The notes below the pieces were generated by a model. It was not told the origin of the DNA, ran no database searches, and was given only the letters and a program-made list of their open reading frames with translations. Below are positions 3,581-53,694 of a stretch of DNA of 64,000 nucleotides, piece after piece. This stretch comes from Alkaliflexus imshenetskii DSM 15055. GTDB lineage: Bacteria; Bacteroidota; Bacteroidia; Bacteroidales; Marinilabiliaceae. Made by a program: the position numbers and the translations under genes. The number at the start of each line of letters is the position of its first letter. Position 1 is the stretch's first letter. The stretch lies in NCBI RefSeq assembly GCF_000517065.1, contig NZ_KI912105.1, positions 709,635 through 773,634 of the forward strand, read 5' to 3'.

Positions 3581-3591
3581 CGCACTACGAA

Positions 3592-12371: not shown

Positions 12372-12539
12372 TTGATTTCAATTTTGTATTTGTTAATGTT
12401 TCAAAAATTACCCGCTGGCACAATTCACCTGCTATTCGTAGGTTTCCTGTCCTTACGGTATTTCTCATCATTAAAACTTCAATTAACACCTGTAGATAAA
12501 TAGAATGGGGAGTTTATAAACCCTCTTTTAAATCAGGTA

Positions 12540-15705: not shown

Positions 15706-17433
15706 TTATCGGGAAAGTAACGCATCAAGTCCACCTGCCAAATAAACAAGTGGCGCGTTCCAGTTGATAGCGATTTCATTGGTTGAATAGCTACATTCCA
15801 AATCCACAAACGACTTTGCAGGAAAAGGACTTCGCTCCACATCCGGTCCGCAATCGGTAAGAACCGAAATGTTTGGACCTCCGGATAAGAAACCGGGTAC
15901 AGGCTCTTCAATACCATCGGCGCCCGATGGCCTATGATGAATATTCATCACTTTTTTATCTCCAAAGCCGGTTACAAAACAATATCCTACGGCATTGCGA
16001 CCAAGGATGTAATCCAGATCAGAAAGTGCTGAATGCACGTATTCCACGTTGCCGGTTAACTTGTGTCCAAAAAGCTTTAACATACCCTGGTTGGCTACAT
16101 CGGAATTGCTTCCCCAGGCAAAATGCGAAAGGCTCACGCCATAAGGAGCTGTTTTTGAGGTATGCGTTAAATCATCAACCAGTGCAAGAAAGTCTTCGCG
16201 TAACCCCGTTGCACGAATCTCGTCGGGCAAACTGGAGTATTGGTTAAGCAATGACATGGCCCCCAGCGCATATACCTGATTCCAGGTTGGCACCACCGGC
16301 TTGGAATACTTTTCGAGTAAAACTGCTTTATACTCAGCATCTCCGGTTGACAAGTAAAGTTCAGCGGCGGCCCAAAACCATTCATCGTCAAAGTTGCGGT
16401 CGCCATAACCGCCTGTGTGTATGTCTTCGGGCTGAATGTAAGGAAGGTCGGGATTAAGAACAGCCCACTGCCATGCATATTTTGCATGCTGCAGACACTT
16501 ATCAGCCAACCCCGGAAAATCATTCTCATAAGCAGACAGCACTCTGTAAGCTTTAGATGCCAATGCAGCATAATTCAAGGTGGCGGATGTTCCCTTAGCC
16601 ACAACATAGCGCTTATTTGTGGCCTCATGTGGCATCACAAACCCTTCAAACTGCTTGGTGGTGAGTTTGTGGTATACACCGCCATCATGCGGATCCTGCA
16701 TTGTTAAAACCCATTTCAGGTTATACAAGGTTTCAGAAAGAATATCGGGAACACCGCTTCCTGACTCAGGTATGTCCACATTAAGATTGCTGTGATAGAC
16801 CGGGAAATCTTTCAAGGCTCTTAGCAAAGTATATGTAGTAATTCCACTGTTAACCACATATTTATTGTAATCGCCGGCATCATACCACCCAAGAGGCGAA
16901 GAGATAATGGTACCTTCCGGCCGGTTGGTATCAGCTGCAGAAGCATGCACGTAAACCACTGTATCGGGATGACCGGCAGGCCTTGCCCAAACACCACCAA
17001 ATTCAGGCTCGATGGGCATCGCAGTGCGGTTGAAATAGAATGCCTTTAAAGCGGCTTTGCTAACCATGCGGAATGGCCTGTCAGAGATTTCAATAGCGGC
17101 AGTTTCGTTATGCCCGGGTAGAATAACTTTATAAACACCCGGTTTAACCAGCGCTGAAAAATTAACCTTACGCACTGCATCACCTGACAAATCCCAGTGA
17201 AGGGCTTGCTGCGGTTCGGCACTGAAAACCTCATTTCCCTCAGCATCTTCAATCACCACTATATCCACGTCTTCGGCAACCAACATCATTTTAGGCGCAT
17301 TGGTAATATACCCCACCTGGTTGTAAAGGATACGATCCTGCCCATCGGGGGCAGATGTCCCTGACGTACCACAAGCATAAATTGAGAGTACGATTAAGAC
17401 AACAAACAAAATCTGTTTAATTAGCTTCAACAT
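15706..17433 (-). CDS. GH9 endoglucanase/cellulase lipoprotein
   Basis: The 575-residue protein has a lipobox ending LSIYAC (Cys21) and an N-terminal Ig-like cellulase domain (about 33-120, with NQVGYITNAPKM). The (alpha/alpha)6 GH9 catalytic domain follows. Catalytic Asp residues lie in GWYDAGDYNKYV (Asp185, Asp188). A substrate-binding His is in MNIHHRPSG, and the proton-donor Glu553 is in STNEIAINWNAPLVYL close to the C-terminus. GH9 enzymes hydrolyse beta-1,4-glucan, typically endo or processively. As a membrane-anchored protein without a clear acidic export signal, it probably trims imported cellodextrins in the periplasm. It lies 49 bases after the GH94 gene in the same operon. Confidence 0.95.
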   Translation of the reverse strand: MLKLIKQILFVVLIVLSIYACGTSGTSAPDGQDRILYNQVGYITNAPKMMLVAEDVDIVVIEDAEGNEVFSAEPQQALHWDLSGDAVRKVNFSALVKPGVYKVILPGHNETAAIEISDRPFRMVSKAALKAFYFNRTAMPIEPEFGGVWARPAGHPDTVVYVHASAADTNRPEGTIISSPLGWYDAGDYNKYVVNSGITTYTLLRALKDFPVYHSNLNVDIPESGSGVPDILSETLYNLKWVLTMQDPHDGGVYHKLTTKQFEGFVMPHEATNKRYVVAKGTSATLNYAALASKAYRVLSAYENDFPGLADKCLQHAKYAWQWAVLNPDLPYIQPEDIHTGGYGDRNFDDEWFWAAAELYLSTGDAEYKAVLLEKYSKPVVPTWNQVYALGAMSLLNQYSSLPDEIRATGLREDFLALVDDLTHTSKTAPYGVSLSHFAWGSNSDVANQGMLKLFGHKLTGNVEYVHSALSDLDYILGRNAVGYCFVTGFGDKKVMNIHHRPSGADGIEEPVPGFLSGGPNISVLTDCGPDVERSPFPAKSFVDLECSYSTNEIAINWNAPLVYLAGGLDALLSR

Positions 17434-17482: not shown

Positions 17483-19915
17483 CTATCCCATAATTACTTC
17501 AACTTGATATGTTCCTGGTTTGGCAAGTGGTATAACATTGCCTTCTACTTCCACATTATCTATCTTAATACTTTTCACGCCTTTGCAAACACCCAAGGGG
17601 TTCGAAATGTGAATGTGGTAGGTCGCTCCTCTCAATTTTCTTGTCACTTGATAACCCTTCCACGCTTTTGGAATACATGGATCTATCATCAGACCATTAT
17701 ATTGAGGACGTATGCCCAGGATATATCTGGTGATGGCATAATAGTTCCAAGCCGCGGTTCCTGTAAGCCATGAGTTTTTTGCCTCACCGGGCTTATGGGC
17801 ATCTTTTCCGGCAATCATCTGCGAATAAACGTAAGGCTCTGTCTTATGCAAATCGCTTATATCTTCCAAGTAAGCAGGGCATATCTTTTTATAGTAATCC
17901 CAAGCCATTTCGCCACGTCCAATCATTGTTTCACCAATCATGATCCATGGATTGTTGTGACAGAAAATACCTGCATTCTCTTTATATCCCGCAGGATAAG
18001 TAGAGATTTCACCATACTCAATCACATATCGGGTAAAAGCCGGATTGTTCAATACAATTCCATACTCGCAATCCAAACGTTCCTTCACCGAATCCAAAGC
18101 CTTTTCAACCATACCCTCTTCCACACCAATTTCAGCCATAGAGCACCATCCCTGTGATTCAATAAAGATTTTGCCTTCTTCATTTTCATTACTGCCCACC
18201 TTTTTGCCAAAGAAATCATAGGCACGCAGGTACCATTCGCCATCCCATCCATGCTGTTTTATGGTCTCTACCATCTTCGCCACGTGAGCCGCTGCTTTAT
18301 CAGCCTCCTCGTTACGTCCGGTTTGACGGCACAAAGCCACATATTCGCGACCGTACACCACAAATAGTCCGGCAATCATAACCGACTCGGCAGTTCCACC
18401 CTTCTTGTTTTCAGTGGTTTGAAACGACTCGTTGGGGTTAGATGAGAAACAATTCAGGTTGAGACAGTCGTTCCAGTCGGCACGGCCAATTAATGGTAGT
18501 CCATGTGGGCCCAGATTGTTTACCACATGATAAAATGAAGCTTTTAAGTGATCGAAATGAGGCTTTGCTGTTGCATCATCGTTGTCAAACGGAACCAGCT
18601 CATCAAGAATGCCATAATCGCCTGTCTCTTTTATGTAATCGGTAGTTGATAAGATAAGCCATAGAGGGTCGTCGTTGAAATTGCCGCCAATGGCATTGTT
18701 ACCCCGTTTGGTAAGGGGCTGATACTGATGGTATGCTCCACCGTCCTCAAACTGTGTGGAGGCAATATCGATGATGCGTTCACGGGCACGAGCCGGCACC
18801 TGATGCACAAAACCGATAAGATCCTGGTTGCTGTCTCTGAATCCCATCCCACGACCAATACCTACCTCAAAAAACGAAGCGGAACGCGACATGTTAAAAG
18901 TTACCATGCATTGGTACTGATTCCAGATGTTAACCATTCTGTCGAGTTTCTCATCTCCGCTCTTAAGCACATATACGCTCAACAAGTTATCCCAATAGCT
19001 GCGTAAAGCATCGAAAGCCTCAGTCACCTTTTCCGGGGTATTAAACTGATCAATTACTGCTTTCGCCTTTGTTTTATTTATCACATTCTTCGACTCCCAT
19101 TTCTGGTCATCGGCATTCTCTACATAACCCAAAATAAATACCAGATCTTTGGTTTCGCCAGGTTTCAATTCTATCTCCAAATAGTGAGAAGCAACCGGAG
19201 ACCAACCATGAGCGTGCGAGTTTCGAGGCTTACCCTCTACCACTACTTGGGGAGCCGAAAACTCATTATACAATCCAACAAAACTTTCTCTGTCAGTATC
19301 ATACCCCTGCACAGGCTGGTTAACATGGTAGTAGGCATAATGATTTCTACGCTCCTTATATTCAGTTTTATGATAGATGGTTGAACCGTCAATTTCAACT
19401 TCGCCGGTGCTCAGGTTACGCTGTAAGTTGTTCTGATCGTCTTCGGCATTCCACAGGCACCACTCCATAAAAGAGAATAACTTAAACTTTTTGGTATCAC
19501 TTCCGGTGTTCCTAAGCGAAAGCTTTTGAACTTCGCACCACGATTTAAGAGGCACAAAACAGAGTAATTCTGCCTGAATGTTATTCTTGGATCCTTGAAT
19601 ACGTGTATAGCTTAACCCATGACGACACTCATAACTATCCAGCTCCGCTTTAACAGGTTTCCAACCGGGAGACCATATTGAATCGCCATCATTTATATAG
19701 AAATAGCGTCCGCCGTTATCCATCGGCACATTGTTGTAGCGATAGCGGGTGAGGCGGCGAAATTTGGCATCTTTATAGAATGCATACCCACCGGCACTAT
19801 TGGATATCAACGAGAAAAAATCTTCGTTACCCAGATAGTTTATCCAGGGCCATGGCGTTTGCGGATTGGTGATCACATACTCTCTGTTCGCGTCGTCAAA
19901 AAAACCGTACTTCAT
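17483..19915 (-). CDS. GH94 cellobiose/cellodextrin phosphorylase
   Basis: This 810-residue protein without a signal peptide is the right length for cellobiose phosphorylase. It begins [18 protein letters not shown], typical of that family. The N-terminal beta-sandwich domain is followed by an (alpha/alpha)6 barrel with [21 protein letters not shown] and the general-acid motif RADWNDCLN (Asp480). The C-terminal jelly roll carries [14 protein letters not shown]94 enzymes cleave cellobiose with phosphate in the cytoplasm to glucose-1-phosphate and glucose, saving ATP. Cellodextrin phosphorylases are usually longer, so cellobiose is the likelier substrate. It follows the GPH symporter by 45 bases, consistent with uptake then phosphorolysis. 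Confidence 0.93.
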
Positions 19916-19960: not shown

Positions 19961-21574
19961 CTACTCTGCTGATTCACGTGCCCGGCGGCTGTTCAGCTCA
20001 AGCGTGATTTCATCAAGTTTACTCTGCGTAAGCGGATAAAGGGTCATTAATGCTGCGGCCAACAGTGCTATAATTGTGGGTATCCAGCTCATGAGCATTT
20101 TAATGGCCGGAATGGCACCTTGAATGGCGACCGAATCCTGTCCGCTGTAATGGTATGCCCCTAAAATGAGACCTATAATGGCACCCGCCACACCACCACC
20201 AAACTTGGTGGAGAAAGAACCTGCTGAATAGACGAGACCGGTTGCCCGACGACCGTTCTTAAACTCGGAGTAATCGGCAGCATCGCCAAGCATGGCAAAA
20301 AACAGTGTCGGAAAAATAGCAGCGGCAAACTCAGATATGATGCCTATTGCAAAGATGGCAGATATGTCACCGGGGCCACAAAATATGAGCAATGCATTTA
20401 CCGCCCCAGAAAAAATCAGAGCATGAATAAACAGTTTGCGCTTTCCCAGCTTCTTGCCCAATGGGCCTGTGGCCATGGCTCCAGCTATTGAAGCAAGCAT
20501 AAGTCCAACAAGATAGGTGCCTGCAAGTAGTTGATTGTTGAGATAATGGGTAAAATAAATGACTACAATTCCCTGTTTTATCGAATTGTACACGTTAAAC
20601 AACAAACCAATGAATAGCAGAACCAGCCATGGTCGATTTTTTATCAAGTCCTTCAAATCCTGGATTAAATTACTTTGCTGAGTCTTTGGCGGCATAACCC
20701 GTTCACGTGTACTATAAAAGGTGATTATCATGAAAAGAGCCAAAAAAGCAGACATGATATAAATAGAATGACTATAACCGCGCTTCTGGTCAATGATGGA
20801 TATTTTGTCAACCGTTAAGTCCGGCTCGCCTTCAACAAGAAACACATAACTCTCATTGGCTTCCATCGAGAAACTTAATGATGAAACAGCAATAGCTGTT
20901 TCGCTGTCTGCAACATCGTCAAACCATGAAAAGTGAGCTATTCCTGCTTTGGTTTTAATATTGACATTTTCCACATCCTTGGATACAGATACGGTGACCT
21001 GATAGCTGGAATCGTCAATTTCGGTGATTAAGACCGATGGATTCACATTGCCGAAATGCGCTACTAAAAAGAGTAAAGCGCCCTGCACAATCATTCCGCC
21101 GCCAAAAGCACCCACCATTCGATAGGAACCAAGACTGGTGCGCTCTTTGTTATCTCCTGTAATTACCGCCATTAATGCACCATACGGGATATTATTGGCT
21201 GTATAAATAAGTGTAAAAAGAATGTAAGTGATGTAGGCATAAATAATCTTTCCGGTTGAGGTCAAGTCGGGTGTGGTAAAGAGTAGGGAAAGAATTACGC
21301 CCAGAGGAATAGCAGTCCACAGTATCCAAGGGCGGAATTTACCATATCGCGAATTGGTGCGGTCACCGATAATGCCCATTAACACGTCACTAATGCCATC
21401 ACTGAAACGTGCTACCAGCATAAGTAAGCCAACAGCGGCAGGGTTAATGCCAAACACATCGGTGTAAAAAACGAAAAGGAAGGTGGCTACGCCGCGCCAT
21501 GCAATGTTGGCAGCTCCATCACCCAGAGCGTATCCAATCTTTTCACTGAGTTTTATCTTATCAATATTTGCCAT
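19961..21574 (-). CDS. GPH-family sugar:cation symporter with a large periplasmic loop insertion
   Basis: This 12-helix MFS/GPH (MelB-like) transporter has the family phrases KIGYALGDGAANIAWRG and RFSDGISDVLMGIIGDRT. I take the ATG at 21574; a TTG lies two codons upstream. The protein is 537 residues from this start, against about 440-480 for typical members. The excess is a hydrophilic, strand-rich segment (about residues 175-262) between predicted helices 5 and 6, which in this topology faces the periplasm. It reads like a small beta-sandwich rather than a linker (VTVSVSKDVENVNIKTK, then SLSFSMEANESYVFLVE). It should carry cellobiose or short cellodextrins across the inner membrane. It starts 16 bases after the regulator stop. 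Confidence 0.9.
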   Translation of the reverse strand: MANIDKIKLSEKIGYALGDGAANIAWRGVATFLFVFYTDVFGINPAAVGLLMLVARFSDGISDVLMGIIGDRTNSRYGKFRPWILWTAIPLGVILSLLFTTPDLTSTGKIIYAYITYILFTLIYTANNIPYGALMAVITGDNKERTSLGSYRMVGAFGGGMIVQGALLFLVAHFGNVNPSVLITEIDDSSYQVTVSVSKDVENVNIKTKAGIAHFSWFDDVADSETAIAVSSLSFSMEANESYVFLVEGEPDLTVDKISIIDQKRGYSHSIYIMSAFLALFMIITFYSTRERVMPPKTQQSNLIQDLKDLIKNRPWLVLLFIGLLFNVYNSIKQGIVVIYFTHYLNNQLLAGTYLVGLMLASIAGAMATGPLGKKLGKRKLFIHALIFSGAVNALLIFCGPGDISAIFAIGIISEFAAAIFPTLFFAMLGDAADYSEFKNGRRATGLVYSAGSFSTKFGGGVAGAIIGLILGAYHYSGQDSVAIQGAIPAIKMLMSWIPTIIALLAAALMTLYPLTQSKLDEITLELNSRRARESAE

Positions 21575-21589
21575 GGTCAAGGTTGGGTT

Positions 21590-22354
21590 TTAGATAGCAA
21601 AATCAAGTAGTTCCGTTTTGGTTGTTTCGTAAATGTCCCTGTCGAACACATACAATCGCGCAGGTTTGTGTGCCACGCCCTTTTGCTTTTCATCCAGAGG
21701 GACGAGGTATTTCATCCGAGAGACTTTTTTCCTGAAATTGCGCTTGTCGAGGGTAACACCCAGTATTACTTCATAAAGTCGTTGCATCTGCGAAAGAGTG
21801 AACTTAGGAGGTAAAAGCTCGAAACCAATAGGTTCGCGCGTTAGTTTCTTGCGCAATGCCTGAAGTGCCTTCTGTAGAATTTCCATGTGGTCAAATGCCA
21901 GTTCTGTAACATCAGAAACCGGAACCCATCGTACATTGCGCCCTTTCCATTCAAGAGTAACCTTATCTGTGTCGAGTAATGAATAGTAACCAATTGTGAT
22001 GATGCGGTGATTGGGATCGCGTCCGTTGGCAGCAAGCCAAGCCTTGTCGTTTTCGCGATTGATACGTGTTGGTGAGCCAAAAGTGTAGAACTGCTCCAGA
22101 TAGATATTCTTTAACCCTGTAAGGTCAAAAAGAATACGGGCAGCGGCCTCATCCAGATCTTCTTCTTCAAAAATGTGGTTACCAGTAAGCGTAAGATCGT
22201 TAAACAGTTCTTTGCCGGATTTTTCATCGTACATTACCCGATCCACCAACAACACATTGAGCTGCATAAAATCAAAACCGAATATAACACAGTCAACAGA
22301 AACAGAGTTGTTAAGGACAATCTTTTGCTCAACCAAATTAGCCGTCGTATTCAT
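21590..22354 (-). CDS. Nudix-fold transcriptional regulator (NrtR/AraR type)
   Basis: The protein is about 254 residues from the ATG at 22354; a GTG at 22357 is an alternative. The N-terminal half is a Nudix fold (VDCVIFGFDFMQLNVLLVDR, then an EEEDLDEAAARILFDLTGL region). The box that should read REUXEEXGU reads RILFDLTGL, so the metal-binding Glu residues are lost and hydrolase activity is unlikely. The C-terminal third (FTLSQMQRLYEVILG, then NFRKKVSRM and ARLYVFD) is the winged helix of NrtR-family regulators. In Bacteroides a protein of this type, AraR, controls arabinose use by binding the sugar. Here it is the first gene of the cellodextrin operon and probably its sugar-responsive regulator. 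Confidence 0.88.
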   Translation of the reverse strand: MNTTANLVEQKIVLNNSVSVDCVIFGFDFMQLNVLLVDRVMYDEKSGKELFNDLTLTGNHIFEEEDLDEAAARILFDLTGLKNIYLEQFYTFGSPTRINRENDKAWLAANGRDPNHRIITIGYYSLLDTDKVTLEWKGRNVRWVPVSDVTELAFDHMEILQKALQALRKKLTREPIGFELLPPKFTLSQMQRLYEVILGVTLDKRNFRKKVSRMKYLVPLDEKQKGVAHKPARLYVFDRDIYETTKTELLDFAI

Positions 22355-22373
22355 CACAAAAAAAATTATGCTT

Positions 22374-23375: not shown

Positions 23376-25682
23376 CTAGAGTTTGACTACTTTGCGGGTG
23401 ACTATCTTCACATTATTGAAAAGATTCAGAATATATACTCCACTGGGAAGGTTTGGAAATACCAACTCCAACGAATCGCCTGAAAGGCCATTGACATGCC
23501 AAACCATTTGCCCACATTGGTTATATAACTGCGCAGAGGAAAATCCTTCAGTTCCTTTAACAAACAAGCGATCGTTAAATGGTATTGGGTGTATGATCAA
23601 CTTATGGCCATAGCCCAAATCTACTACCGAGTTAGAAATAAAAGGAACTATTTCGAACCAATTAAAATTAAACGGGCTACCTTCAGCAACAATCCGGATA
23701 GTTTGCACACCTGCCTCGAGACTAAAGGAAGTATTTCCCTCAACGGTAAACCATGATTGATACTGTTGTGCCCCTCTATTGGGAATTTGGGCAGTTGCCA
23801 AGTTGACATTATCGACATTTCGTAGAGCGATTTTACCTGTATCAGTCCATCCAGACACCCGGAAATTCACTTCATAAACCCCGCTTTCAGCCACATCGAC
23901 AATATACTCTAACCAGTCACCGGTATCAATCCAGCCAATATTGAGACCTCCTCCATCATCTTGAGTATCTTGCCATCTAATCCCGTTCATGTCATCAAAG
24001 AACTCGGCTTCAATTTTACCTGGAACTGGCATAGGGTCTACCGGGGCAAAGCTGAAAGCATTAGCCACACTAATTGTTTTGGTGATAGTAGATCCACCAT
24101 TAATGTGAGAAACAGCTTTCAGATCATAAAAACCCGCCTCTAAATCGTTCAGCAGTTCATTGGTGTAATCCCATGTGTAGGGTGCCTGAGTTATTTTCCC
24201 AATAAATTCATCGTTGATATACATATCAACCGATTCTATACCAGAGGCATGCTCTGCTGCTACAGTTATCGTAAGTTTTTGGCTGGTTTTAAGTCTATCA
24301 CCATCCTGAGGAGTGACAAAAGTTAAAGTACCATTTAAAGCTGTAGCCGAAGAATATTCCGTAATAACTGGTCCGCAGAAATTTTTAGAATGTTTCTCAT
24401 TATACTCGTAAGCTAATACTATATCACCCTGAGCATTAAACACTAACATCTTGGTCGTTTTTGCAGCAATATGTCCTGTTATCTCCTTTGAGATGCCGGC
24501 TGCCACACGAATACGTAAAGGAGCGCTGGCTCCATAGGCATTATTAAGACCAATATTAAAATCATAGGCTGCAGTTGCGCTGCGATTGATAATCATTACT
24601 GAAAAACCATCGACATCGCCCATGGAAACAATTGTGATGCCATTGTTGGCTCCATTTGGCACAGGACCGTTATGAGCATTTGGCAGATAATTTGCTTTCA
24701 TATGCCTTCCCAGCATATAGCTGTGATAGAAGGAACTTCGACCGCGATTAGCACCACCGAAAAGTTCGTCCAGTCCGTCAAACAAACCTAAATCGCCCTG
24801 TGAACGATTTCCTCCACCTTCATATATACTCCATCCAGCGATGGTGACAGCTCCTCGGCGCATCCCAATATCGTATACTTCAGCAAATGTCTGCCCAGTA
24901 TTAAAGCTCCAGCACTTCTGGGCATCGGTGGCCGTAGTGTTGTTGTAGTGCCCATTAAACTCCAAAATTGCCCACTCCATTTTCTTCCCTGCCGGACGCG
25001 TATTATTCTGACTGTTAACTAAGTTCACGGCAGAGGTTATAGTACCATTATACTCCAACCCATAGGTGATGGCATATTTATTCCAGGTTAGCACATCAAT
25101 ATAGTAGTTGCCATTGGCATCTGTTCCGGAAATATCATCAGCACCCTTATTTACAAATAAGGGATTAAAATAACTTGTATCATACCACGCCGTGGTGGGA
25201 CCCATGGTTTTAATATTCGGATCGTAAGCCTTAAGCGCGGAGGCTATTCGTCTTGTATAAGTAGCCACCGTTGTTACAGGTACCAAAGGCTGATGGTTTG
25301 GTTCATTGCCAATAGCCCAATATTTCACATTAAGAGCTCTGGTACCGTTAATATAGGTAATCATATCAATAGCTTGCTGCGCGGTATGGGTATATGGAAC
25401 CTGAACAATAGGTTCGGCACCCAGAGCGCGAATTTCCACCACCAAATCAGCGATACGGGCGTTAGTGTAAGCAGTGGCATTCTGTGCGCCATTTCCACCA
25501 ATCCGAATCAACTGAAATCCAGCCTCCCCCATCTCAGATTTTAAAGCATTCCATTTCGACCCTGACATCCAAGGTGGAAGCCATACGTTATTTCCAATCA
25601 GATAGGGGCTTATTTGCTGGGCAAGCAGTGAATTAACTGCCATAAAAATTATAATAAAAGTCAATAACTTTTTCATTATCAT
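23376..25682 (-). CDS. T9SS-secreted clan GH-A-like glycoside hydrolase with CBM6
   Basis: The 768-residue protein has a signal peptide to about residue 22 (NSLLAQ). A (beta/alpha)8-like domain spans about 25-420. It carries YWAIGNEPN with a likely acid/base Glu127 and EWAILEFNGH with a likely nucleophile Glu241, the geometry of clan GH-A. I could not assign a GH family. An Ig-like domain (about 452-545) and a CBM6 (about 555-680, with KIEAEFFDDMNGI and GWIDTGDWLEYIVDV) follow. A type A T9SS sorting domain (about 690-768, ending LPSGVYILNLFNN) closes it. The enzyme should be released or anchored outside the cell. A second start at 25676 is equally good. It sits at the distal end of PUL 3. Confidence 0.85.
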   Translation of the reverse strand: MIMKKLLTFIIIFMAVNSLLAQQISPYLIGNNVWLPPWMSGSKWNALKSEMGEAGFQLIRIGGNGAQNATAYTNARIADLVVEIRALGAEPIVQVPYTHTAQQAIDMITYINGTRALNVKYWAIGNEPNHQPLVPVTTVATYTRRIASALKAYDPNIKTMGPTTAWYDTSYFNPLFVNKGADDISGTDANGNYYIDVLTWNKYAITYGLEYNGTITSAVNLVNSQNNTRPAGKKMEWAILEFNGHYNNTTATDAQKCWSFNTGQTFAEVYDIGMRRGAVTIAGWSIYEGGGNRSQGDLGLFDGLDELFGGANRGRSSFYHSYMLGRHMKANYLPNAHNGPVPNGANNGITIVSMGDVDGFSVMIINRSATAAYDFNIGLNNAYGASAPLRIRVAAGISKEITGHIAAKTTKMLVFNAQGDIVLAYEYNEKHSKNFCGPVITEYSSATALNGTLTFVTPQDGDRLKTSQKLTITVAAEHASGIESVDMYINDEFIGKITQAPYTWDYTNELLNDLEAGFYDLKAVSHINGGSTITKTISVANAFSFAPVDPMPVPGKIEAEFFDDMNGIRWQDTQDDGGGLNIGWIDTGDWLEYIVDVAESGVYEVNFRVSGWTDTGKIALRNVDNVNLATAQIPNRGAQQYQSWFTVEGNTSFSLEAGVQTIRIVAEGSPFNFNWFEIVPFISNSVVDLGYGHKLIIHPIPFNDRLFVKGTEGFSSAQLYNQCGQMVWHVNGLSGDSLELVFPNLPSGVYILNLFNNVKIVTRKVVKL

Positions 25683-26270: not shown

Positions 26271-27128
26271 TTATTTCACTACAAATTTTACATAGCTTTT
26301 TTCACTTCCTGCAGATACTTGCATGATATACATGCCGGGAGGTTCAATAACAAATGGCAGTATGTGATTCCCAGCAGAGATGTACCCATCATTCACTGTC
26401 ATAACCAACTGCCCTACAAGGGAATAAACTTTCACCACTAAATTAACTCCATCCACTAATGAAAGTTTTAGACTGGCAGTGCCTGAAGAAGGATTCGGCA
26501 TAACCGAAACATCCGTGAACAAAGAAATAGTACTCGCAGATGTAGAAGTGGAAGACCAAAGTGTTATATCATCGATATAATAACGGTTAGCTGAACGGTT
26601 GTCACCAATTTCTGTATGATTAGGCCGAATCTGGAAAAAATCATAATTCATCTCGGGATTAATATTGAATGTCAGAGTTTGCCACGTACTCTGCTGGCTC
26701 AAATCCACATCCGCAACTATATCCATTGCCCCACTCCCGTTCATCCTGAGCGCCACACGAAAAACTTTGTTGGAATCAATATCAGCCTGGCTAGGGAAAA
26801 TTGGAGAATTATCAGTTCCATTGTCACTATAATACTTCAGACTAATACGATCGAAACCCAGTGTACTAATCACATCTGCTGCATCGACACCTCGCGATGC
26901 GGTTAAGTTAACTGCAAAAAAACCAGAACCACCACTTCCGGTACGAAGTAAAACTTTGCTACTTGTATTAACCCCTTCGATTTTTGGATTATCCGTAACT
27001 GATGTTTCTGTAAACCGGTAATGACGAACACCTGATTCAAAACCATCAATAACTAACGGAGCCTGAGCAAAAGTAGTTGCACTAAGGATGATTAAAATCC
27101 AGAACAAAAAAGTAGATTTAGTTTTCAT
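26271..27128 (-). CDS. T9SS-sorted putative carbohydrate-binding protein
   Basis: A 285-residue secreted protein with a signal peptide ending near residue 22 (TTFAQ). The mature part (about 25-200) begins LVIDGFESGVRHYRF and ends RYYIDDITLWSS, the start and finish of CBM4/CBM11-like jelly-roll domains. No catalytic motif is visible. Residues about 205-285 are a T9SS type A sorting domain (VMPNPSSG, VKVYSLVGQLV, PPGMYIMQVSAG). It lies 202 bases after the GH3 gene in PUL 3. A likely role is binding polysaccharide outside the cell; the binding call is inferred from fold pattern only. Confidence 0.72.
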   Translation of the reverse strand: MKTKSTFLFWILIILSATTFAQAPLVIDGFESGVRHYRFTETSVTDNPKIEGVNTSSKVLLRTGSGGSGFFAVNLTASRGVDAADVISTLGFDRISLKYYSDNGTDNSPIFPSQADIDSNKVFRVALRMNGSGAMDIVADVDLSQQSTWQTLTFNINPEMNYDFFQIRPNHTEIGDNRSANRYYIDDITLWSSTSTSASTISLFTDVSVMPNPSSGTASLKLSLVDGVNLVVKVYSLVGQLVMTVNDGYISAGNHILPFVIEPPGMYIMQVSAGSEKSYVKFVVK

Positions 27129-27329: not shown

Positions 27330-29579
27330 CTAAAGACAAACGGAAAATTGAGTCATAAGTCCTTCCTGACTATTGCCTCCGACCATTAGATTAAACATTC
27401 CAGGCTCAACCTTATACTCCATATCGATACCGTAAAATGCCAAACTCGCAATTGGCAGGTGAAAACTAATCTTCCGTGTTTCTCCCGGCTTCAGGCTAAC
27501 GCGTCTAAACTCCTTTAACTCTTTCACCGGACGTACAGTGGAGCCAACCAAATCAGTCACATATAGTTGCACAACTTCTGTAGCCTCAAAAGCTCCTGAA
27601 TTTGTAAGATTAAAACTAACTTCAAGGACTGCATTTGCATCTAGCTCAAGGCTTGATAGAATTAAGTTCTCGTAATCGAAAGTGGTGTATGAGAGTCCAA
27701 AACCAAAGTGGAACAACGGACCAAATCCCGCATCAAGATAATATGAAGTATTACCCAGAGAGGATTGACGAGCCTCTAAAGGAATTTCATCAAGCAGAAC
27801 TTCGTTTCCACGCGCAGGTCTTCCGGTACGGTTATGATTATAATAAACTGGTATTTGACCAACCATCTTAGGAAAAGTCACCGGCAGTTTACCTGATGGA
27901 ACCGACTTACCAAAAAGCATATCAGCAATAGCAGGGCCTCCCATCGTGCCGGGATGCCAGGCATATAACACTGCATCAGACAAATCCACCTCCTCGCCAA
28001 TTGTAAGCGGACGACCTGCCATGAATACGGTTACCAATGGCTTTTTTGCTTTCTTTATCTCTCGTATAAGATCAGTCTGAGCTCCTTGCAGGCTTATGTC
28101 GGCCAAGGAGTGAGCTTCGCCTGACAGAATAGATTCTTCACCTACGAAGACAATGACCACATCGGCGCGTCTGGCTAAATCAAGCGCTTTGTTAAAACGT
28201 GATTTATCTTTATCCCTGCTGAATTTAAGTGCTTCTTCGTAAATAATATTAACCTGGTTTCCATACATCTCCCTCAAAGCAGTTAGTGGAGTTACAGTAT
28301 GTTCCTTTTCACCATCAAACACCCAGGTACCCATTTGGTCATGTGGCGCATCAGCCATAGGGCCAATTACAGCAATGGTTTTTACCCTATCGTTAAGTGG
28401 CAACACGTTATTGTTGTTCTTTAGCAAAACAAAGGACTCTTCGGCAGCGATTTTGGCTGCTTGTAAATGCTCTTCAGAATAAGCAAGGCGGGTCTTATCA
28501 GTCTCAATATATGGATTATCAAATAATCCAAGTCGGAATTTTAAGCGTAAGATGTTTCGAACAGCTTCATCAATGGTAGAGATAGAAACTTTACCCTCTT
28601 CAACCAAAGTTTCGAGGTGACGAATGTAGCATAGGGAGACCATTTCCATATCGAGCCCGGCATTAATGGCGGTCATAGCGGCATCTTTATCATCCGCAGA
28701 AAAACCATGTACAACCATCTCTTTTACCGAAGCCCAATCAGATACCACTACTCCATCAAATCTCCACTCTTTACGCAGAATATCCCTCAACAAAAAACGG
28801 TTCCCGGTGGCAGGAATCCCGTCATTATCGTTAAATGATGTCATAATAGTGGCACATCCAGCTTTTACGGCAGCTTCAAATGGCGGCAAATACACATTTC
28901 GGAGTTGACGCTCTGGAATATAAGTTGAATTGTAATCTTTTCCCCCTTCGGCTGCACCATAACCAATAAGGTGTTTGGCACATGCAGCCATTGATGAAGG
29001 ATTAGATAAATCATCTCCCTGAAAGCCTCTTATCATTGCAACAGCCAACACTTCAGTAAGATATGTGTCTTCACCAAAACTTTCGGCAATACGTCCCCAT
29101 CTGGGATCCCTTGAAATATCCATCATAGGCGCAAAAGTCCATCGGATGCCATCCTGAGTTGCTTCGGCAGCGGCAATTCTTGCCCCCTCCTGCACTATAT
29201 CAGGATTAAATGAAGCGGCCTGTCCCAATGGAATGGGGAATATGGTTTTATATCCATGAATCACATCTCGCGCAATCAACAGTGGAATTCCCAGCCGGCT
29301 CTCATTCACGGCTAAACTTTGAATATGATTAATCAACTCAGGCTGCTCAATATTTAAAATAGAACCTATCTCGCCGTTTTTGATTTGTTCAAAAAATGCT
29401 TCATCTGGCCTACGACCGTTTAGCTGATTCATCTGGCCTATCTTTTCACGCAATGTCATCCGGGAAAGAAGTTGTTCCACGTTCTGCTCAATTTTACATG
29501 AGACCTTTTCCGGGCCATTGCAGCCGGGCATCATCAGTGTGGTAAATACCACAATTGCTACTAGTTTAAATATCCTCAT
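27330..29579 (-). CDS. GH3 beta-glucosidase, BglX-like lipoprotein
   Basis: The ATG at 29579 gives 749 residues with a lipobox ending MMPGC (Cys20). An in-frame TTG upstream would overlap the preceding gene and spoil the signal peptide. The GH3 N-terminal barrel carries RDVIHGYKTIFPIPLG, AKHLIGYGAAEGGKDY and the nucleophile in VVVSDWASV (Asp281). The C-terminal domain has FVGEESILSGEAHSL with the likely acid/base Glu, and a fibronectin-III-like domain ends the protein. The sequence is very close to the BglX type, which releases terminal glucose or xylose from beta-oligosaccharides in the periplasm. It starts 4 bases inside or beside the stop of the agarase-like gene, so translation is probably coupled. 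Confidence 0.94.
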   Translation of the reverse strand: MRIFKLVAIVVFTTLMMPGCNGPEKVSCKIEQNVEQLLSRMTLREKIGQMNQLNGRRPDEAFFEQIKNGEIGSILNIEQPELINHIQSLAVNESRLGIPLLIARDVIHGYKTIFPIPLGQAASFNPDIVQEGARIAAAEATQDGIRWTFAPMMDISRDPRWGRIAESFGEDTYLTEVLAVAMIRGFQGDDLSNPSSMAACAKHLIGYGAAEGGKDYNSTYIPERQLRNVYLPPFEAAVKAGCATIMTSFNDNDGIPATGNRFLLRDILRKEWRFDGVVVSDWASVKEMVVHGFSADDKDAAMTAINAGLDMEMVSLCYIRHLETLVEEGKVSISTIDEAVRNILRLKFRLGLFDNPYIETDKTRLAYSEEHLQAAKIAAEESFVLLKNNNNVLPLNDRVKTIAVIGPMADAPHDQMGTWVFDGEKEHTVTPLTALREMYGNQVNIIYEEALKFSRDKDKSRFNKALDLARRADVVIVFVGEESILSGEAHSLADISLQGAQTDLIREIKKAKKPLVTVFMAGRPLTIGEEVDLSDAVLYAWHPGTMGGPAIADMLFGKSVPSGKLPVTFPKMVGQIPVYYNHNRTGRPARGNEVLLDEIPLEARQSSLGNTSYYLDAGFGPLFHFGFGLSYTTFDYENLILSSLELDANAVLEVSFNLTNSGAFEATEVVQLYVTDLVGSTVRPVKELKEFRRVSLKPGETRKISFHLPIASLAFYGIDMEYKVEPGMFNLMVGGNSQEGLMTQFSVCL

Positions 29580-29583
29580 CTCG

Positions 29584-31029
29584 CTACTTTTCCACGTTAT
29601 CAAAAAAATTGATTAACCCATACGTATTATTATTGACTTGCTTCATCTGTTCCAACAAAGGCAAATAGGGTTCATACCGAATTGTCATGATGCCCTTATT
29701 TGAATCACGATTAGATGGATCCGCATGAATATTTTCAGGATCATTATCCATATACTTGAACCAATGCCAGCCTACGCAATGCTTACTCTTTAAGAGTTCG
29801 ATGGTGAAATTTTGGTAGAAATATCCACGATCCAACTGCGTAGGGACATTCCATCCAGCGCCCGTATGATTAGGCAATCCACTGTCTTCACCTTTAGTGT
29901 ACCATTCAGTAATTAAAAATGGCTTACCAGACCATTCGCCCCAATTCGAAAGCATTTCCTGATCAGGTTCCCACTTACGATAATGGTTTATCGATATTAT
30001 GTCCATATATTCACCTGCCACTCGAAATATTTCGGGGTTGGTCAATTCCTGTTCTCGCTCCTGATTAAAGCGGCAACCCAAATACATGTGATTAGGGTCA
30101 TACTTACGAAGTACTTCGGTAACCTTTCTCATATAGGTTTCGAAATAAAACCCTGTAAAAGCAATGCGATCTTCATGCGTAACATCCTCAAGTCCTGCTT
30201 CGAAACCTTTATGTTCATTGAGCCAGTTGCGTGCAGCAATATGTCCATGTTCGTCTTCACCAAGGAGTTTAAGGTGGCGATCCAGCGCATCGTTTACCCA
30301 TGGAAGCTCATTATCGGTAAAATAACCTAAGAGGAACTGGTCATTTTTATACTTCTCTATCGGCTTGAGGGAGTTCTCTATGTGCTCATCAAACTCAGGA
30401 TCAAAAACCATCACCAGGTCGTACCGGTAACCTTGCCAACCAGCTTGTTCATACTTCCCTCCAAATCGCTTAATATGCTCGCGACGATAGCTTGCCATTG
30501 GGGAAACAATCACGGTATATACCGGCGGCTGCTCCATTTCTCTGAGGATATCCGCAGCCGACCAGGCGCCGACGCCATTGAAGCCGTACTTAGCCAGTAA
30601 ACGTGTTTGATCTTCTGCCCAATGAAGGTTGTCATCAAATAACTCGTTGAACGAACGCTTCATGTTATCTGACAAACCAGGACGAAACGCCACCACCGCC
30701 CGATGAATAAATTGATAACCCTCCGGATCTATAATCCACCATCGATCGCCTACCTTCTGAGTACGAAAAAAGCCTGTAGCCTCGAGCTTTTCTGTTCTCC
30801 AACCCCCAAACTGTGAAACCGGAGGTTCCTCAGACGGCTTAAACCCCGGAAGCCTGTCAATCGTTTTAGCAGAATAAGCAGTCCAGACTGTATCTAAAGC
30901 ATTTCGTCTACTCATAACTTGATGATAATCTAAGAGATGACTAGACCTAGCTTCACCTCTCGATTTACAACTTAAACCCAGACCTGCTAAAAGAATAAAT
31001 AACAGGCCAAAGAAACTATATTTTATCAT
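29584..31029 (-). CDS. Agarase-related clan GH-A lipoprotein, family unassigned
   Basis: The 481-residue lipoprotein has Cys21 in LGLSC, followed by basic residues, so it probably faces the periplasm. The segment GFFRTQKVGDRWWIIDPEGY resembles proteins annotated as agarases (GH50/GH86 relatives). A (beta/alpha)8 barrel follows, with likely acid/base Glu241 in FTDNELPW and likely nucleophile Glu375 in FLITEWYTKG, both in clan GH-A positions. At 481 residues it is shorter than characterised GH50 enzymes. No other agar enzyme is present, so agarase activity is doubtful; a beta-glucanase or another endo/exo activity on the PUL 3 glycan is as likely. Confidence 0.7.
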   Translation of the reverse strand: MIKYSFFGLLFILLAGLGLSCKSRGEARSSHLLDYHQVMSRRNALDTVWTAYSAKTIDRLPGFKPSEEPPVSQFGGWRTEKLEATGFFRTQKVGDRWWIIDPEGYQFIHRAVVAFRPGLSDNMKRSFNELFDDNLHWAEDQTRLLAKYGFNGVGAWSAADILREMEQPPVYTVIVSPMASYRREHIKRFGGKYEQAGWQGYRYDLVMVFDPEFDEHIENSLKPIEKYKNDQFLLGYFTDNELPWVNDALDRHLKLLGEDEHGHIAARNWLNEHKGFEAGLEDVTHEDRIAFTGFYFETYMRKVTEVLRKYDPNHMYLGCRFNQEREQELTNPEIFRVAGEYMDIISINHYRKWEPDQEMLSNWGEWSGKPFLITEWYTKGEDSGLPNHTGAGWNVPTQLDRGYFYQNFTIELLKSKHCVGWHWFKYMDNDPENIHADPSNRDSNKGIMTIRYEPYLPLLEQMKQVNNNTYGLINFFDNVEK

Positions 31030-31095: not shown

Positions 31096-32943
31096 TTACT
31101 TGAATTGCTCTTTCTTTGTCAAATAATATTCGCGCAGTACATAAAAAGCCTTCTTTCTATTTCCGGTTTGAGATATGACACCTTTTCGGTTCCATCCATC
31201 CTGAATATCTGACAGGGTTCGTCGGGGTGACCGGAAATCGGCAAGAATCCATGGAGTAATGCCACGCAATTGAGGAATTTTCTCCAACATTTTTAAAGTT
31301 TCGTCATATAAATGCTCCTGAAACTCTTCAGTCCACATTTGATCTTTAGAACCATGATGTCCCTGTAAAGCACCGCCACCGAACTCAGAAATAATAACTG
31401 GTTTGTCGTAATTGATTTCAAATACAGCTGTTGCGCAACGTTCAGGTAAGCCTGCATACCAACCGATGTATTGATTAAAGCTGATTACATCGACAAATTC
31501 CTGAAGAGGATCTTCAATCACCTGAATATTATCTGTACCTGGCTTGGTATGTCTTTCGAGGGCTGCACTGATTAACCGCACCTGATCCATTGATCGGGTT
31601 GTTTCAATCATTCTTTTAAGGAAGGCCGTTCGTGATTCGGACACAGGTGTTTCATTGGCCATTGACCAAATAATGACAGATGCACGGTTTTTATCGCGGG
31701 TAATCATTTGTACCAACTGATTTCGGGCATTATTAAAAGTGTTCTCGTTTTCCCAATGAATGGTCCAATAAACTGGTACTTCTGACCAAACCATTATACC
31801 CATTTCATCGGCTATCCGCACCATATTTTCGTTATGTGGATAGTGTGCCAGACGCACGAAATTACAACCCAACTCTTTGGCCCAACCCAACAACATCCGG
31901 GCATCTTCTTCGGAATATGCCCGCCCTCCACGAACACCATTTTCTTCATGGATACAAATGCCGCGTAGAAATACTGATTTACCATTTACCAATATGTCTG
32001 AACCTCTTGTCTTAATCGTTCTGAAACCTATCCGATCATGAAGAACGTTGTCATTGTGGACAATATTCACATCATACAAATACGGATTTTCGGGATGCCA
32101 AAGATTGAGTTTCCGAGCACGCACTTGTGTTGTGGCCAATCCATTTTCATCTGTAACAACATTAACTTTGATTTTTGCTTCAGGAATGTCAATAGAAACA
32201 GTCTGACCAGCTATTTCGTCTCCATTTAACCTGACCGAGATTTGAATTAGTTCTGAATTGTCAGGTGCCAGTTGCACAAAATAATCTTGTATAAAAGTCT
32301 CGGCCACTTCAACAATTTTCACGTCTCTGGTAATACCACCATAGTTCCACCAGTCTGTATTAATAGTAGGAACAGCCTCTGGTTTACGGGTATTGTCTAC
32401 CATGAGAATAACGAAATTGTCATTCGGTTTGAGCTTACCGGTAATTTCAAAGTTGAATGGCGTAAATCCGCCTTGATGCATTCCAAGTTTTTCTCCATTT
32501 AGATAAACGTGTGCTTCATAATTAACAGCACCAAAATAAAGGAACTGACGCATGTTATCAGAGGTTGGCACATAGTTAAAGGCCTTATAGTACCAAATTG
32601 CTCCTTCATAATAAAAAAGATTCTCCTTCTGAGAGTTCCAATCACGAGGAACCAACAGATTGTCAGCCTTATCAAAATCATACTCGACCCGATCACCAGG
32701 AAACTGCGCCTTGTAACCAAGGAATAATGATTCTGCAGTGCTTGGTCTGGTCTGAGTGTCTCGTTGAATTTGTCGATAATCATAAAATCCGGTTTGATAT
32801 GGATCGACGATATACCGCCAATAACCATTCAACGATACAGTTGATCTGTTCGACACATTTATAATCTGGGCATCTTGAGAAAACAAAGTGCCATTAAAAA
32901 CACTCAGCATCAACACTATTAATCCTATTTGCTTAATTCTCAT
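31096..32943 (-). CDS. GH2 enzyme with beta-glucuronidase signature
   Basis: The ATG at 32943 gives 615 residues and a clean signal peptide (MRIKQIGLIVLMLSVFNG). A longer GTG-started frame adds 39 residues that spoil it. GH2 sugar-binding, Ig-like and barrel domains follow in order. The acid/base Glu431 is in WSMANETP and the nucleophile Glu520 in VIISEFGGG. The segment WNRKGV holds Asn585-x-Lys587, the NxK motif that reads the uronate carboxylate in beta-glucuronidases. Flanking text (FNQYIGWYAG, DMW-like QMWTEEFQ, WILADFRSP) also follows UidA closely. It probably removes beta-linked glucuronic acid in the periplasm; beta-galactosidase activity is the alternative. It lies between a PKD lipoprotein and the agarase-like gene. 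Confidence 0.88.
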   Translation of the reverse strand: MRIKQIGLIVLMLSVFNGTLFSQDAQIINVSNRSTVSLNGYWRYIVDPYQTGFYDYRQIQRDTQTRPSTAESLFLGYKAQFPGDRVEYDFDKADNLLVPRDWNSQKENLFYYEGAIWYYKAFNYVPTSDNMRQFLYFGAVNYEAHVYLNGEKLGMHQGGFTPFNFEITGKLKPNDNFVILMVDNTRKPEAVPTINTDWWNYGGITRDVKIVEVAETFIQDYFVQLAPDNSELIQISVRLNGDEIAGQTVSIDIPEAKIKVNVVTDENGLATTQVRARKLNLWHPENPYLYDVNIVHNDNVLHDRIGFRTIKTRGSDILVNGKSVFLRGICIHEENGVRGGRAYSEEDARMLLGWAKELGCNFVRLAHYPHNENMVRIADEMGIMVWSEVPVYWTIHWENENTFNNARNQLVQMITRDKNRASVIIWSMANETPVSESRTAFLKRMIETTRSMDQVRLISAALERHTKPGTDNIQVIEDPLQEFVDVISFNQYIGWYAGLPERCATAVFEINYDKPVIISEFGGGALQGHHGSKDQMWTEEFQEHLYDETLKMLEKIPQLRGITPWILADFRSPRRTLSDIQDGWNRKGVISQTGNRKKAFYVLREYYLTKKEQFK

Positions 32944-33113
32944 CACAATTTCTTTATTTAACTCAAATTCATACCCACTGAGAACTAAGCCTGTATTAAT
33001 TCCCCCTTTGCGCATATACGATATTTTATAAGAATTTGGGATGTAGTTATCCCTGTACACCTCAAAATAGCTGAGGGTCCAACAATCTTTTCAACAAATA
33101 AGAGCAGATAATA

Positions 33114-33173: not shown

Positions 33174-34109
33174 TTATTTCAAATCAAATTTTTCAGATAC
33201 GAAAACATGATCCACATCAAATACATAAGGATCCCAGTTACGCACATCACCGCCAGTTCCATCTGGTAATGTCGTACTTCTGAAAAGGAGAAAGTCGGTA
33301 ATTTCTCCTAAACGGAGGTTTCTAGCGGCATCAGCGGCAACAATGTCAGCTATGGGAATAGTAATGTGATGCCATTCGCCATCCCGCTTAAAACCATACT
33401 CTTCACCTTCAGCAGTAAAAGTTAGTATTGCGTTTCCTCCGCCAGTACTGCGAATACGGATTAGAATTGCTGCCTGAGATGCAGAACGCAATGCCACGTG
33501 ATAATAGCCATCAGCAAAGGCAGAAATATCCACAGATTGTCCTCCATAATTTAGAGCCCCCATTGCCCAGTCGGATGCCCCGGTCGCCTCAAATCTGTAT
33601 GCCTTTACTCCTTCGTATGTATCAGTAATCAAAGTACCGGGAAACTGATTCATGTTTAGAGCTACAGTGGTAAAACCACTTTGAGTTATCTCAACATCTT
33701 CCGTAAACAAACCAAGGGTGGCACCATATTCATATTCTGGCTTGATGGTTGCAGGATCCCGCTCCACCTCAATTGCAAACACTTCCATTTTCTTGCTGCC
33801 ATCTACAAAAGTTAACTCAAGAATGGTATTATAAGAGCCTCCAACCGGATAGGTAACCGTTACTTCTTGTTCTGTAGAAGTGGCCGGGGTTCCACCTTGA
33901 AATGTCCATTTCCGGGCATGAACCTTGGTAGAATTATCGGTATACGTAATGGATTCATCCCAACTGATACTCACAGCACTAGCTGAAACACTTAGCTCTG
34001 GCGCTTCATAGATCACTGTATCCCATTTATATAAATCTTCGCCACAAGCGACTAATAAAAGCATAACAAGACCCACTTGGGCTGCTAAAAAATATTTTAA
34101 CTTTTTCAT
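33174..34109 (-). CDS. PKD-domain lipoprotein, putative surface glycan-binding protein
   Basis: The 311-residue lipoprotein has Cys22 in LLVAC, followed by GEDLYKWD. A PKD/Ig-like domain spans about 38-115 (VSISWDESITYTDNSTKVHARKW is split by the usual strand turns; TWTF-like KWTFQGGTPATS). The C-terminal half (about 130-305) is a galactose-binding-like jelly roll. It contains GYYHVALRSASQA, DGEWHHITIPI, a LRLGEITDF strand and VFDVDHVFV at the end. No catalytic motif is seen. Position right after GH10, in an operon headed by susC/susD, suggests a surface glycan-binding protein that aids capture. This function is inferred. Confidence 0.72.
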   Translation of the reverse strand: MKKLKYFLAAQVGLVMLLLVACGEDLYKWDTVIYEAPELSVSASAVSISWDESITYTDNSTKVHARKWTFQGGTPATSTEQEVTVTYPVGGSYNTILELTFVDGSKKMEVFAIEVERDPATIKPEYEYGATLGLFTEDVEITQSGFTTVALNMNQFPGTLITDTYEGVKAYRFEATGASDWAMGALNYGGQSVDISAFADGYYHVALRSASQAAILIRIRSTGGGNAILTFTAEGEEYGFKRDGEWHHITIPIADIVAADAARNLRLGEITDFLLFRSTTLPDGTGGDVRNWDPYVFDVDHVFVSEKFDLK

Positions 34110-40081: not shown

Positions 40082-40110
40082 AATGACGATTTTATTATTT
40101 GGTATTGACA

Positions 40111-40190
40111 CAAAACTAGTTCGACACGTTGGCTAAGTCTATTACGATTTTCCATAATTGTTATAAAATCGTCCAAAATGATTATAAATG
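40111..40190 (-). promoter_or_regulatory. susC (PUL 3) promoter with candidate regulator-binding repeats
   Basis: On the minus strand TAGTTTTG at 40118-40111 fits the TAnnTTTG -7 element and would place the transcript start near 40104, about 23 bases before the ATG. No TTG lies at the usual -33 position, as expected for an activator-dependent promoter. Upstream there is an 8-bp inverted repeat (ACGATTTT at 40144, AAAATCGT at 40165). There is also a 7-bp direct repeat TTATAAA at 40161 and 40182, 21 bases (two helical turns) apart, the spacing favoured by AraC-type activators. Confidence 0.5.
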
Positions 40191-46451: not shown

Positions 46452-46508
46452 TATCTGCCGTTAAGTTCTGGAATATTTCAGCAAATATTGATGGTTTGTG
46501 TTGATATA

Positions 46509-47792: not shown

Positions 47793-47816
47793 ATCAGGTT
47801 TTTTTTACAGATGCTA

Positions 47817-47888
47817 ACCCAATGCGGTTTAAGGCATTACAGAACTAAATCAGGTAATCTGTGCCACAAAAAAGCAATTGCATTGGGT
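47817..47888. promoter_or_regulatory. Inverted repeat in the galK leader
   Basis: ACCCAATGC at 47817-47825 is matched by its complement GCATTGGGT at 47880-47888, a perfect 9-bp pair 54 bases apart. A further GCATT half lies at 47834. The element spans the region just upstream of the galK ATG. It could be a paired operator or a leader RNA stem; I cannot decide between them. Confidence 0.35.
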
Positions 47889-47975
47889 CAAATATTATTA
47901 TACATTAAAATTTTATCGTTTTGGGAATTCATCTTTCGAGGCAATACAAGCCAGGCGAAAAACCCACCAACCGAC

Positions 47976-53606: not shown

Positions 53607-53694
53607 ATAATTCTATAATATTAATTTACGCAAAATATCGTTCCCAATATAATACAAAAGCCAGATAAAACAACAATAAGAGTAATGTAAGCTT

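Follow-up and report, generated by a model that had tools for sequence, protein, structure and literature searches.

A modular protein of Alkaliflexus imshenetskii, very likely a retaining glycosidase of clan GH-A in a group apart from GH44, GH51 and GH39

The stretch of DNA analysed here comprises 64,000 nucleotides of the Alkaliflexus imshenetskii DSM 15055 genome (contig NZ_KI912105.1, positions 709,635 to 773,634; hereafter the window). At 23376-25682 it encodes, as a single open reading frame on the minus strand, a secreted modular protein of 768 residues (hereafter the target), which is very likely a retaining glycoside hydrolase (GH) of clan GH-A and a member of a coherent group for which Pfam and NCBIfam hold no model. 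Confidence is high that the target is a clan GH-A glycosidase and that its group is separate from GH44, GH51 and GH39. A first-pass annotation made from the DNA letters had proposed an extracellular clan GH-A enzyme whose barrel matches no recognised family and which may represent a new family or subfamily. The comparisons below fit that proposal and add two points on which it was silent, namely the minus strand (the same interval in frame 1 of the plus strand contains many stops) and a C-terminal beta-sandwich in the catalytic unit.

Fold and catalytic residues

The catalytic unit of the target comprises 424 residues (22-445) and is predicted to form a (beta/alpha)8 barrel followed, after strand beta-8, by a beta-sandwich. 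The AlphaFold2 model of this unit, built on 53 aligned barrels, has a mean predicted local distance difference test score of 95.7 over the whole unit and a predicted template modelling score of 0.94; strands were numbered by hand on this predicted, non-experimental model. Glu127 in the motif GNEPN and Glu241 in LEFNGH, which the first-pass annotation had taken as markers of the clan, lie exactly at those positions of the reading frame, and the clan assignment is borne out by the model layout and the conserved residues. Residues N126, E127, Y203, E241 and W284 occur in 53/53 barrels, R60 in 52/53 and H201 in 51/53, and both glutamates are also invariant in a 61-row full-length alignment. Because IGNE closes one of the two peptide patterns used to gather the relatives, the conservation of N126 and E127 is partly built in; that of E241, R60, H201, Y203 and W284 is independent of the search pattern. 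Catalytic residues at beta-4 and beta-7 and an Asn preceding the acid/base are features of clan GH-A according to the available part of one source (PMC7157763), and the same arrangement was found here, with one Glu past beta-4 and one at beta-7 in the model and the Asn in place throughout. Catalysis with retention by Glu127 and Glu241 would follow from this model and from general knowledge of the clan. At position 201, where nearly all barrels carry His, Asn is found only in the target and its sister from locus L057, and this residue may mark an altered specificity.

Structural comparison of the model with VIA-align placed GH51 and GH79 in the lead, followed by GH30 and GH39, at 12-17% identity. 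Since the Z values of the best 50 rows span no more than 28.5 to 25.5, the predicted fold appears to single out no one family.

Family boundaries

Pfam and NCBIfam scans gave no match over target residues 22-445, and a single-sequence search of PDB chains with the target reached only E 0.5 (GH51). Relatives were gathered as a set: a single genome collection supplied 77 loci (the best 80 of 105 confirmed stretches) and plasmid records two distant ones, giving 79 loci. The plasmid collection yielded three matches in all, distant and actinobacterial, two of which entered the set, and the viral contigs searched contained no relative. A tree of 88 barrels, made with a quick method, separates a core of 60 from an outer clade of 28 with a support of 100. 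The core spans Bacteroidota, Pseudomonadota (Cellvibrionaceae and one Cocleimonas), Verrucomicrobiota, Planctomycetota, Fibrobacterota, Myxococcota, Chloroflexota and Cellulomonas. The nearest relative of the target is the L057 protein (57% identity), followed by two proteins from one Salinivirgaceae genome (43-44%).

Profile hidden Markov models (HMMs) were built from 53 barrels (52 core barrels and that of L063), 27 outer-clade barrels, 8 GH44, 20 GH51 and 9 GH39 sequences. The 53-barrel HMM scored 293-559 bits on its own rows and 86-198 bits on the 27 outer-clade rows, against at most 24.7 bits on GH44, 22.2 on GH39 and 13.9 on GH51; own-row scores are inflated by the use of these rows in training, and the reference sets are small and drawn largely from Bacteroidota. 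In the reverse direction, the GH44, GH51 and GH39 HMMs reached at most 21.9, 14.2 and 26.7 bits on the 53 barrels, compared with at least 648 (8 rows), about 814 or more and at least 676 (9 rows) on their own rows. The target itself has no match to PF12891 (GH44) or GH39 and no listed match to PF22848 (GH51), and its genome holds no GH44, GH51 or GH39 at E 1e-20. The gap between 293 bits or more and 25 bits or fewer supports a sequence family of its own in clan GH-A, as delimited against GH44, GH51 and GH39. The scans, the PDB search and the head-to-head HMMs agree with the first-pass view of an unassigned barrel, and its suggested HMM check, run with Pfam and NCBIfam, found no family covering the target barrel.

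Profile-profile comparison (hhalign) gave 98.5% for GH44 (E 1.8e-15), 97.8% for GH39 and 97.0% for GH51, as for distant kin, and GH44, an endoglucanase family, is the nearest of the three. The possibility that the group is a distant branch of GH44 draws on this value, on the 99.7% of the outer clade to GH44, and on the Pfam GH44 model, which weighs against a separate family by matching 31/53 barrels weakly up to E 0.01 (best 3e-7; bit scores are not given and a few may pass the cut-off) and 2/61 full-length members at E 1e-5. We consider it very unlikely: one relative scanned singly scored 19.8 against the PF12891 cut-off of 25.1, the target itself is without a match, the family HMMs part cleanly, and the GH44 profile score is not far above that of GH39. 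Other barrels weakly match GH39 (6/53, best 3.9e-6) or GH5 (4/53), as expected at clan level, and the NCBIfam ArfA model (GH51) weakly matches 9/53 (best 1.6e-5); the scattered GH44, GH39 and GH5 matches look like clan-level kinship. It is rather unlikely, in our judgement, that the group already belongs to a recent CAZy family lacking both a Pfam model and a solved structure, an explanation compatible with any substrate. The comparisons covered families with a Pfam or NCBIfam model or a solved structure, and the available parts of two sources describe clan GH-A families set up in recent years, GH148 and GH158 (PMC5725463; PMC7157763); against this, searches of the open-licence literature, at the level of titles and abstract beginnings, found no description of such a family.

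Likeness to named families is partial in each case. GH51 enzymes (4atw and 3ug3 from Thermotoga, 2c7f Araf51 from C. thermocellum) share the barrel and beta-sandwich, occupy top Foldseek rows and are the best match when PDB sequences are searched by profile (E 1.8e-13), but differ in their low identity and HMM scores. GH79 (7pr9, a bacterial heparanase, and 7psj, a beta-glucuronidase) reaches Z 27.9-28.5 over 336-347 residues in its best rows and is tied with GH51 in fold, at 14-16% identity; its profile matches are E 5e-4 for an Acidobacterium enzyme and E 2e-6 for the presumably GH79-like hyaluronoglucuronidase 7eyo. GH44 (2e0p Cel44A, 2yih xyloglucanase) is near by profile, and GH39 matches by profile (1px8, E 3.4e-9) and by structure (5jvk, Z 26.2), whereas the HMMs separate both. 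The GH148 enzyme EngU, compared by the description in the available part of its source, is a clan GH-A member whose nucleophile motif VTEYN is similar to ITEFN, the consensus in the target's family, and which has Cellvibrio relatives; it differs in its acid/base motif INNEN, in a CBM4 inserted in the barrel, and in glutamates 211 residues apart without the 131-residue insert, against 114 in the target (PMC5725463). BuGH158 likewise comes from a small family of clan GH-A and has an Ig-like domain and an Asn before the acid/base, but its glutamates are 83 residues apart, as far as the available part of its source describes it (PMC7157763). The solved GH158 structure is absent among PDB profile matches up to E 0.01, an absence that alone is no proof.

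The family is rare yet wide, with members in 2 of 395 genomes across the phylum at E 1e-40, the host genome included, and the same two at E 1e-8 in a single-sequence search. Full-length members occur in two of the 71 genomes of the host family, its own and that of Marinilabilia salmonicolor (G032). The latter has two members, the same proteins as at L047 and L049, together with a SusC/D pair resembling that of the target's locus. If confirmed, the group would add a carbohydrate-active enzyme family mostly missed by current annotation. Among 61 core members scanned at E 1e-5 (5 of which end at a contig edge), catalytic Pfam matches were limited to GH5 in three, GH44 in two and GH71 in one, so that the main enzyme can seem to be missing from loci in Bacteroidota, Cellvibrio relatives, Opitutaceae and others.

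Weaker partial matches came from 16 more genomes in the host family, with best E values between 9e-22 and 4e-11. At loci L096-L109, also of that family, reading frames mostly of about 1200-1350 residues match a portion of the barrel profile at E 9e-22 to 1e-16; these are perhaps another clan GH-A group.

Domain architecture and export

Downstream of the catalytic unit, the Ig-like (Big_7), CBM6 and type IX secretion system (T9SS) domains named in the first-pass annotation all score above curated cut-offs (Table 1), with TIGR04183 for the tail; the Pfam T9SS model falls slightly under its own (25.9 against 27). Export of the target through T9SS is expected from its sequence because the host genome has a gene for SprA and codes for 48 T9SS tails, that of the target included; with the signal peptide, recognised by eye, this agrees with the extracellular location first proposed. 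Terminator-like hairpins flank the target at 26260-26236 and 23037-23019, and for this reason it may be transcribed alone; the region holds 6 such hairpins against 2.8 expected (standard deviation 1.8). A promoter scan returned 16 candidates where 14.2 would be expected by chance, no real excess.

Add-on domains among the 61 core members were T9SS tails in 16 (the target's own tail, narrowly below E 1e-5 in Pfam, is outside this count), CBM6 in 11, Big_7 in 5, fn3 in 3 and CBM2 in 2. Several others have the look of lipoproteins by eye, e.g., at L044, L050, L053 and the outer-clade locus L086. Two or more family members are present at 11/47 core loci; at L044, L050 and L053 (Flavobacteriaceae), tandem family genes stand soon after a SusC/D pair.

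Gene neighbourhood

The target sits in a polysaccharide utilisation locus (Table 1). On the minus strand the order is hybrid sensor, SusC-like, SusD-like, GH10, PKD protein, GH2, GH50-like, GH3, T9SS protein and target, followed by an NrtR-type regulator, transporter, GH94, GH9 and a second SusC/D-like pair.

Table 1. Coordinates of the target, its parts and the surrounding locus within the window
Feature	Position	Strand	Basis or remark
Hybrid two-component sensor/regulator	40366..44307	-	60% identical to a partial one at L057 (histidine kinase, receiver and AraC domains)
SusC-like protein	37106..40111	-	By eye; 43-67% identical to counterpart at 5 core loci
SusD-like protein	35501..37069	-	By eye and place beside SusC; 41-59% identical to counterpart at the same 5 core loci
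GH10	34301..35383	-	PF00331, E 2.4e-87; nearest PDB chains xylanases
Probable PKD-domain protein	33177..34109	-	PKD models under their cut-offs
GH2	31099..33060	-	Nearest PDB chains "GH2 beta-galacturonate AqGalA" and beta-galactosidase/beta-glucuronidase
GH50-like protein	29587..31029	-	No Pfam/NCBIfam match; nearest PDB chain 5t3b (E 1e-62), then agarases
GH3	27333..29603	-	Pfam scan
Secreted T9SS-tailed protein, 285 residues, directly upstream of target	26274..27128	-	No other convincing domain match
Target: signal peptide, residues 1-21	25620..25682	-	Ends ...NSLLA ahead of QQISP; by eye from sequence
Target: (beta/alpha)8 barrel, residues ~22-340	24663..25619	-	AlphaFold2 model and fold matches
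Target: Glu127, predicted acid/base, just past beta-4, Asn126 before it	25302..25304	-	Invariant 53/53; AlphaFold2 model
Target: Asn201, strand beta-6	25080..25082	-	His in 51/53 barrels; Asn in target and sister L057
Target: Glu241, predicted nucleophile, within beta-7	24960..24962	-	Invariant 53/53; AlphaFold2 model
Target: C-terminal beta-sandwich of catalytic unit, residues ~341-445	24348..24662	-	Strand run after barrel, AlphaFold2 model
Target: Big_7 Ig-like domain, residues 452-522	24117..24329	-	PF17957, E about 3.6e-12, above curated cut-off
Target: CBM6, residues 558-678	23649..24011	-	PF03422, E 1.5e-19; 71 bits, cut-off 28.9
Target: T9SS C-terminal sorting domain, residues 699-767	23382..23588	-	TIGR04183, 32.5 bits, cut-off 23
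NUDIX/NrtR-type transcription regulator	21593..22357	-	Domain scan
Probable sugar transporter, major facilitator superfamily type by eye	19964..21580	-	Sequence
GH94 cellobiose phosphorylase	17486..19915	-	1366 bits, full length, to 3qde; sole GH94 match in genome
GH9 with CelD_N domain	15709..17433	-	Domain scan
Second SusC/D-like pair	10824-15602	-	No counterpart at 40% identity in 47 core loci

Neighbour counts at other loci come from comparison with the proteins of the window, and many contigs end near the family gene; L047 and L049, two stretches of one Marinilabilia contig, are counted twice. At 40% identity or more, the first SusC/D pair recurs at 5/47 core loci (L030, L044, L049, L050 and L053), GH2 and GH3 at 7 each, the GH50-like protein at 4 and GH10 at 2. 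The GH50-like protein shares 58-65% identity with proteins encoded beside family members at L019, L022, L045 and L047. Five GH5 proteins lie near core members at L047, L049, L050 and L053 (four loci, three contigs), that of L050 having endoglucanases, among them 6q1i and 6xsu, as its closest matches.

In the outer clade, 6/32 loci have a GH94 with 46-58% identity to that of the window no more than 2.6 kb from the family gene, accompanied by GH3 at L086 and L092 and by GH9 at L068. These six genomes, picked for their GH94 neighbour and, with the host's own, the ones in which copies were counted, each have between 1 and 7 GH94 matches, counting fragments, and measure 1.6-7.7 Mb. The order at L086 is esterase-like, LacI regulator, solute-binding protein, permease, family gene, GH3, GH94 and GH94, two of these genes being unscanned.

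Substrate and mechanism

Taken as a whole, the best explanation of the target is a secreted retaining beta-glycanase acting on a heteropolysaccharide that contains beta-1,4-glucan, a tentative reading whose chances fall a little short of even. T9SS would export the modular clan GH-A enzyme, and its CBM6 would hold it on a beta-glycan outside the cell. With Glu127 as acid/base and Glu241 as nucleophile, beta-glycosidic bonds would be cleaved with retention by double displacement, and the cuts in the heteropolysaccharide would be internal; such endo action is probable. The SusC/D pair would take up the products, the GH2, GH3, GH50-like and GH9 enzymes would trim them, and cellobiose would be imported and then split by the GH94 phosphorylase. 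In this account the architecture, predicted fold, conserved residues, family separation and recurring neighbourhood are computed results, while catalysis, retention, endo action and substrate are deduced.

The glucan signals are the GH94, GH9 and GH5 neighbours, the GH94 genes of the outer clade and the nearness of the GH44 profile; from these, a beta-1,4-glucan-type target is plausible at not quite even chances. The GH94, the uronidase-like GH2 and the GH50-like, epimerase and galactokinase-like genes, which point to cellobiose, a uronic acid and perhaps galactose, suggest a heteropolysaccharide. Several observations weigh on the other side. None of the 47 core loci has a GH94 that reaches 40% identity to the one in the window, and the latter lies 3.5 kb from the target, beyond the regulator and transporter genes. 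The GH10 and the uronidase-like GH2 would be superfluous for plain beta-1,4-glucan. The GH50-like neighbour does not speak for beta-1,4-glucan, since GH50 also includes beta-1,3-glucanases and a beta-galactosidase, as the available part of one source has it (PMC11079163).

The same breadth of GH50 would suit an endo-beta-1,3-glucanase or mixed-linkage glucanase resembling the small clan GH-A families GH148 and GH158, as would the endo-beta-1,3-glucanases that the available text of a further source places in clan GH-A families 17, 128, 148 and 158 (PMC7157763). The L018 member, which adjoins GH16 and GH26-like proteins carrying CBM6, also favours beta-1,3-linkages over beta-1,4-glucan. So does the CBM6 of the target, which is closest to those of AaBglC (8zvk) and BH0236, presumably beta-1,3-glucan proteins or binders. 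Such an activity is nevertheless unlikely, given the cellobiose phosphorylase genes close to the target and to members of the outer clade, the GH9 and endoglucanase-like GH5 neighbours, and the occurrence of GH16 at one locus only among loci whose neighbours were partly scanned. An exo-acting arabinofuranosidase, xylosidase or uronidase, modelled on the nearest folds, is quite unlikely. The best structural matches (Z about 28) are GH51 arabinofuranosidases and GH79 glucuronidases and heparanases, not endoglucanases, and GH51 also leads the PDB profile search, both of which count against a beta-1,4-glucanase; yet the GH51 model hardly scores the 53 barrels, the small drop in Z extends over several clan GH-A families, and the T9SS tails and CBM6 domains of core members (16/61 and 11/61) suit action on a polymer.

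For a beta-1,4-glucan-containing heteropolysaccharide, a more specific proposal, doubtful as it stands, is that the barrel founds a new clan GH-A family comprising the core and its sister clade, that the core serves an undescribed heteropolysaccharide with cellobiosyl, galactose and uronic acid units, e.g., an algal or cyanobacterial exopolysaccharide, and that the Asn201 sub-branch has a shifted specificity. The cyanobacterial exopolysaccharide is an idea for which no literature was found. The conserved neighbours (SusC/D, GH2, GH3, GH10, GH50-like and GH94) make the substrate question directly testable, the GH50-like branch included.

Two other substrates were considered and rejected. Agar, suggested by the GH50-like neighbour, was set aside in view of the cellobiose phosphorylase and GH9 at the locus. 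Xylan would fit the GH10, but GH43, GH67 and GH115 were absent among the window proteins scanned, which cover part of the window.

Other genes of the window

Past the second SusC/D-like pair lies a further such pair (1949-6714, minus strand), beside which a 481-residue protein (461-1903, minus strand) has no Pfam match at E 1e-5. Between the two pairs, on the opposite strand, an ORF (open reading frame) of 1156 residues (7281-10748, plus strand) is 25-28% identical to sensor-like proteins of other loci. Beyond the sensor gene, an aldose epimerase, a galactokinase-like protein and a second NrtR-type regulator are encoded at 45387-48677 on the minus strand and perhaps form a galactose catabolic set. 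Two genes resembling periplasmic sugar-binding proteins (52617-54696, minus strand; 54953-56752, plus strand) lie beside a chemotaxis receptor.

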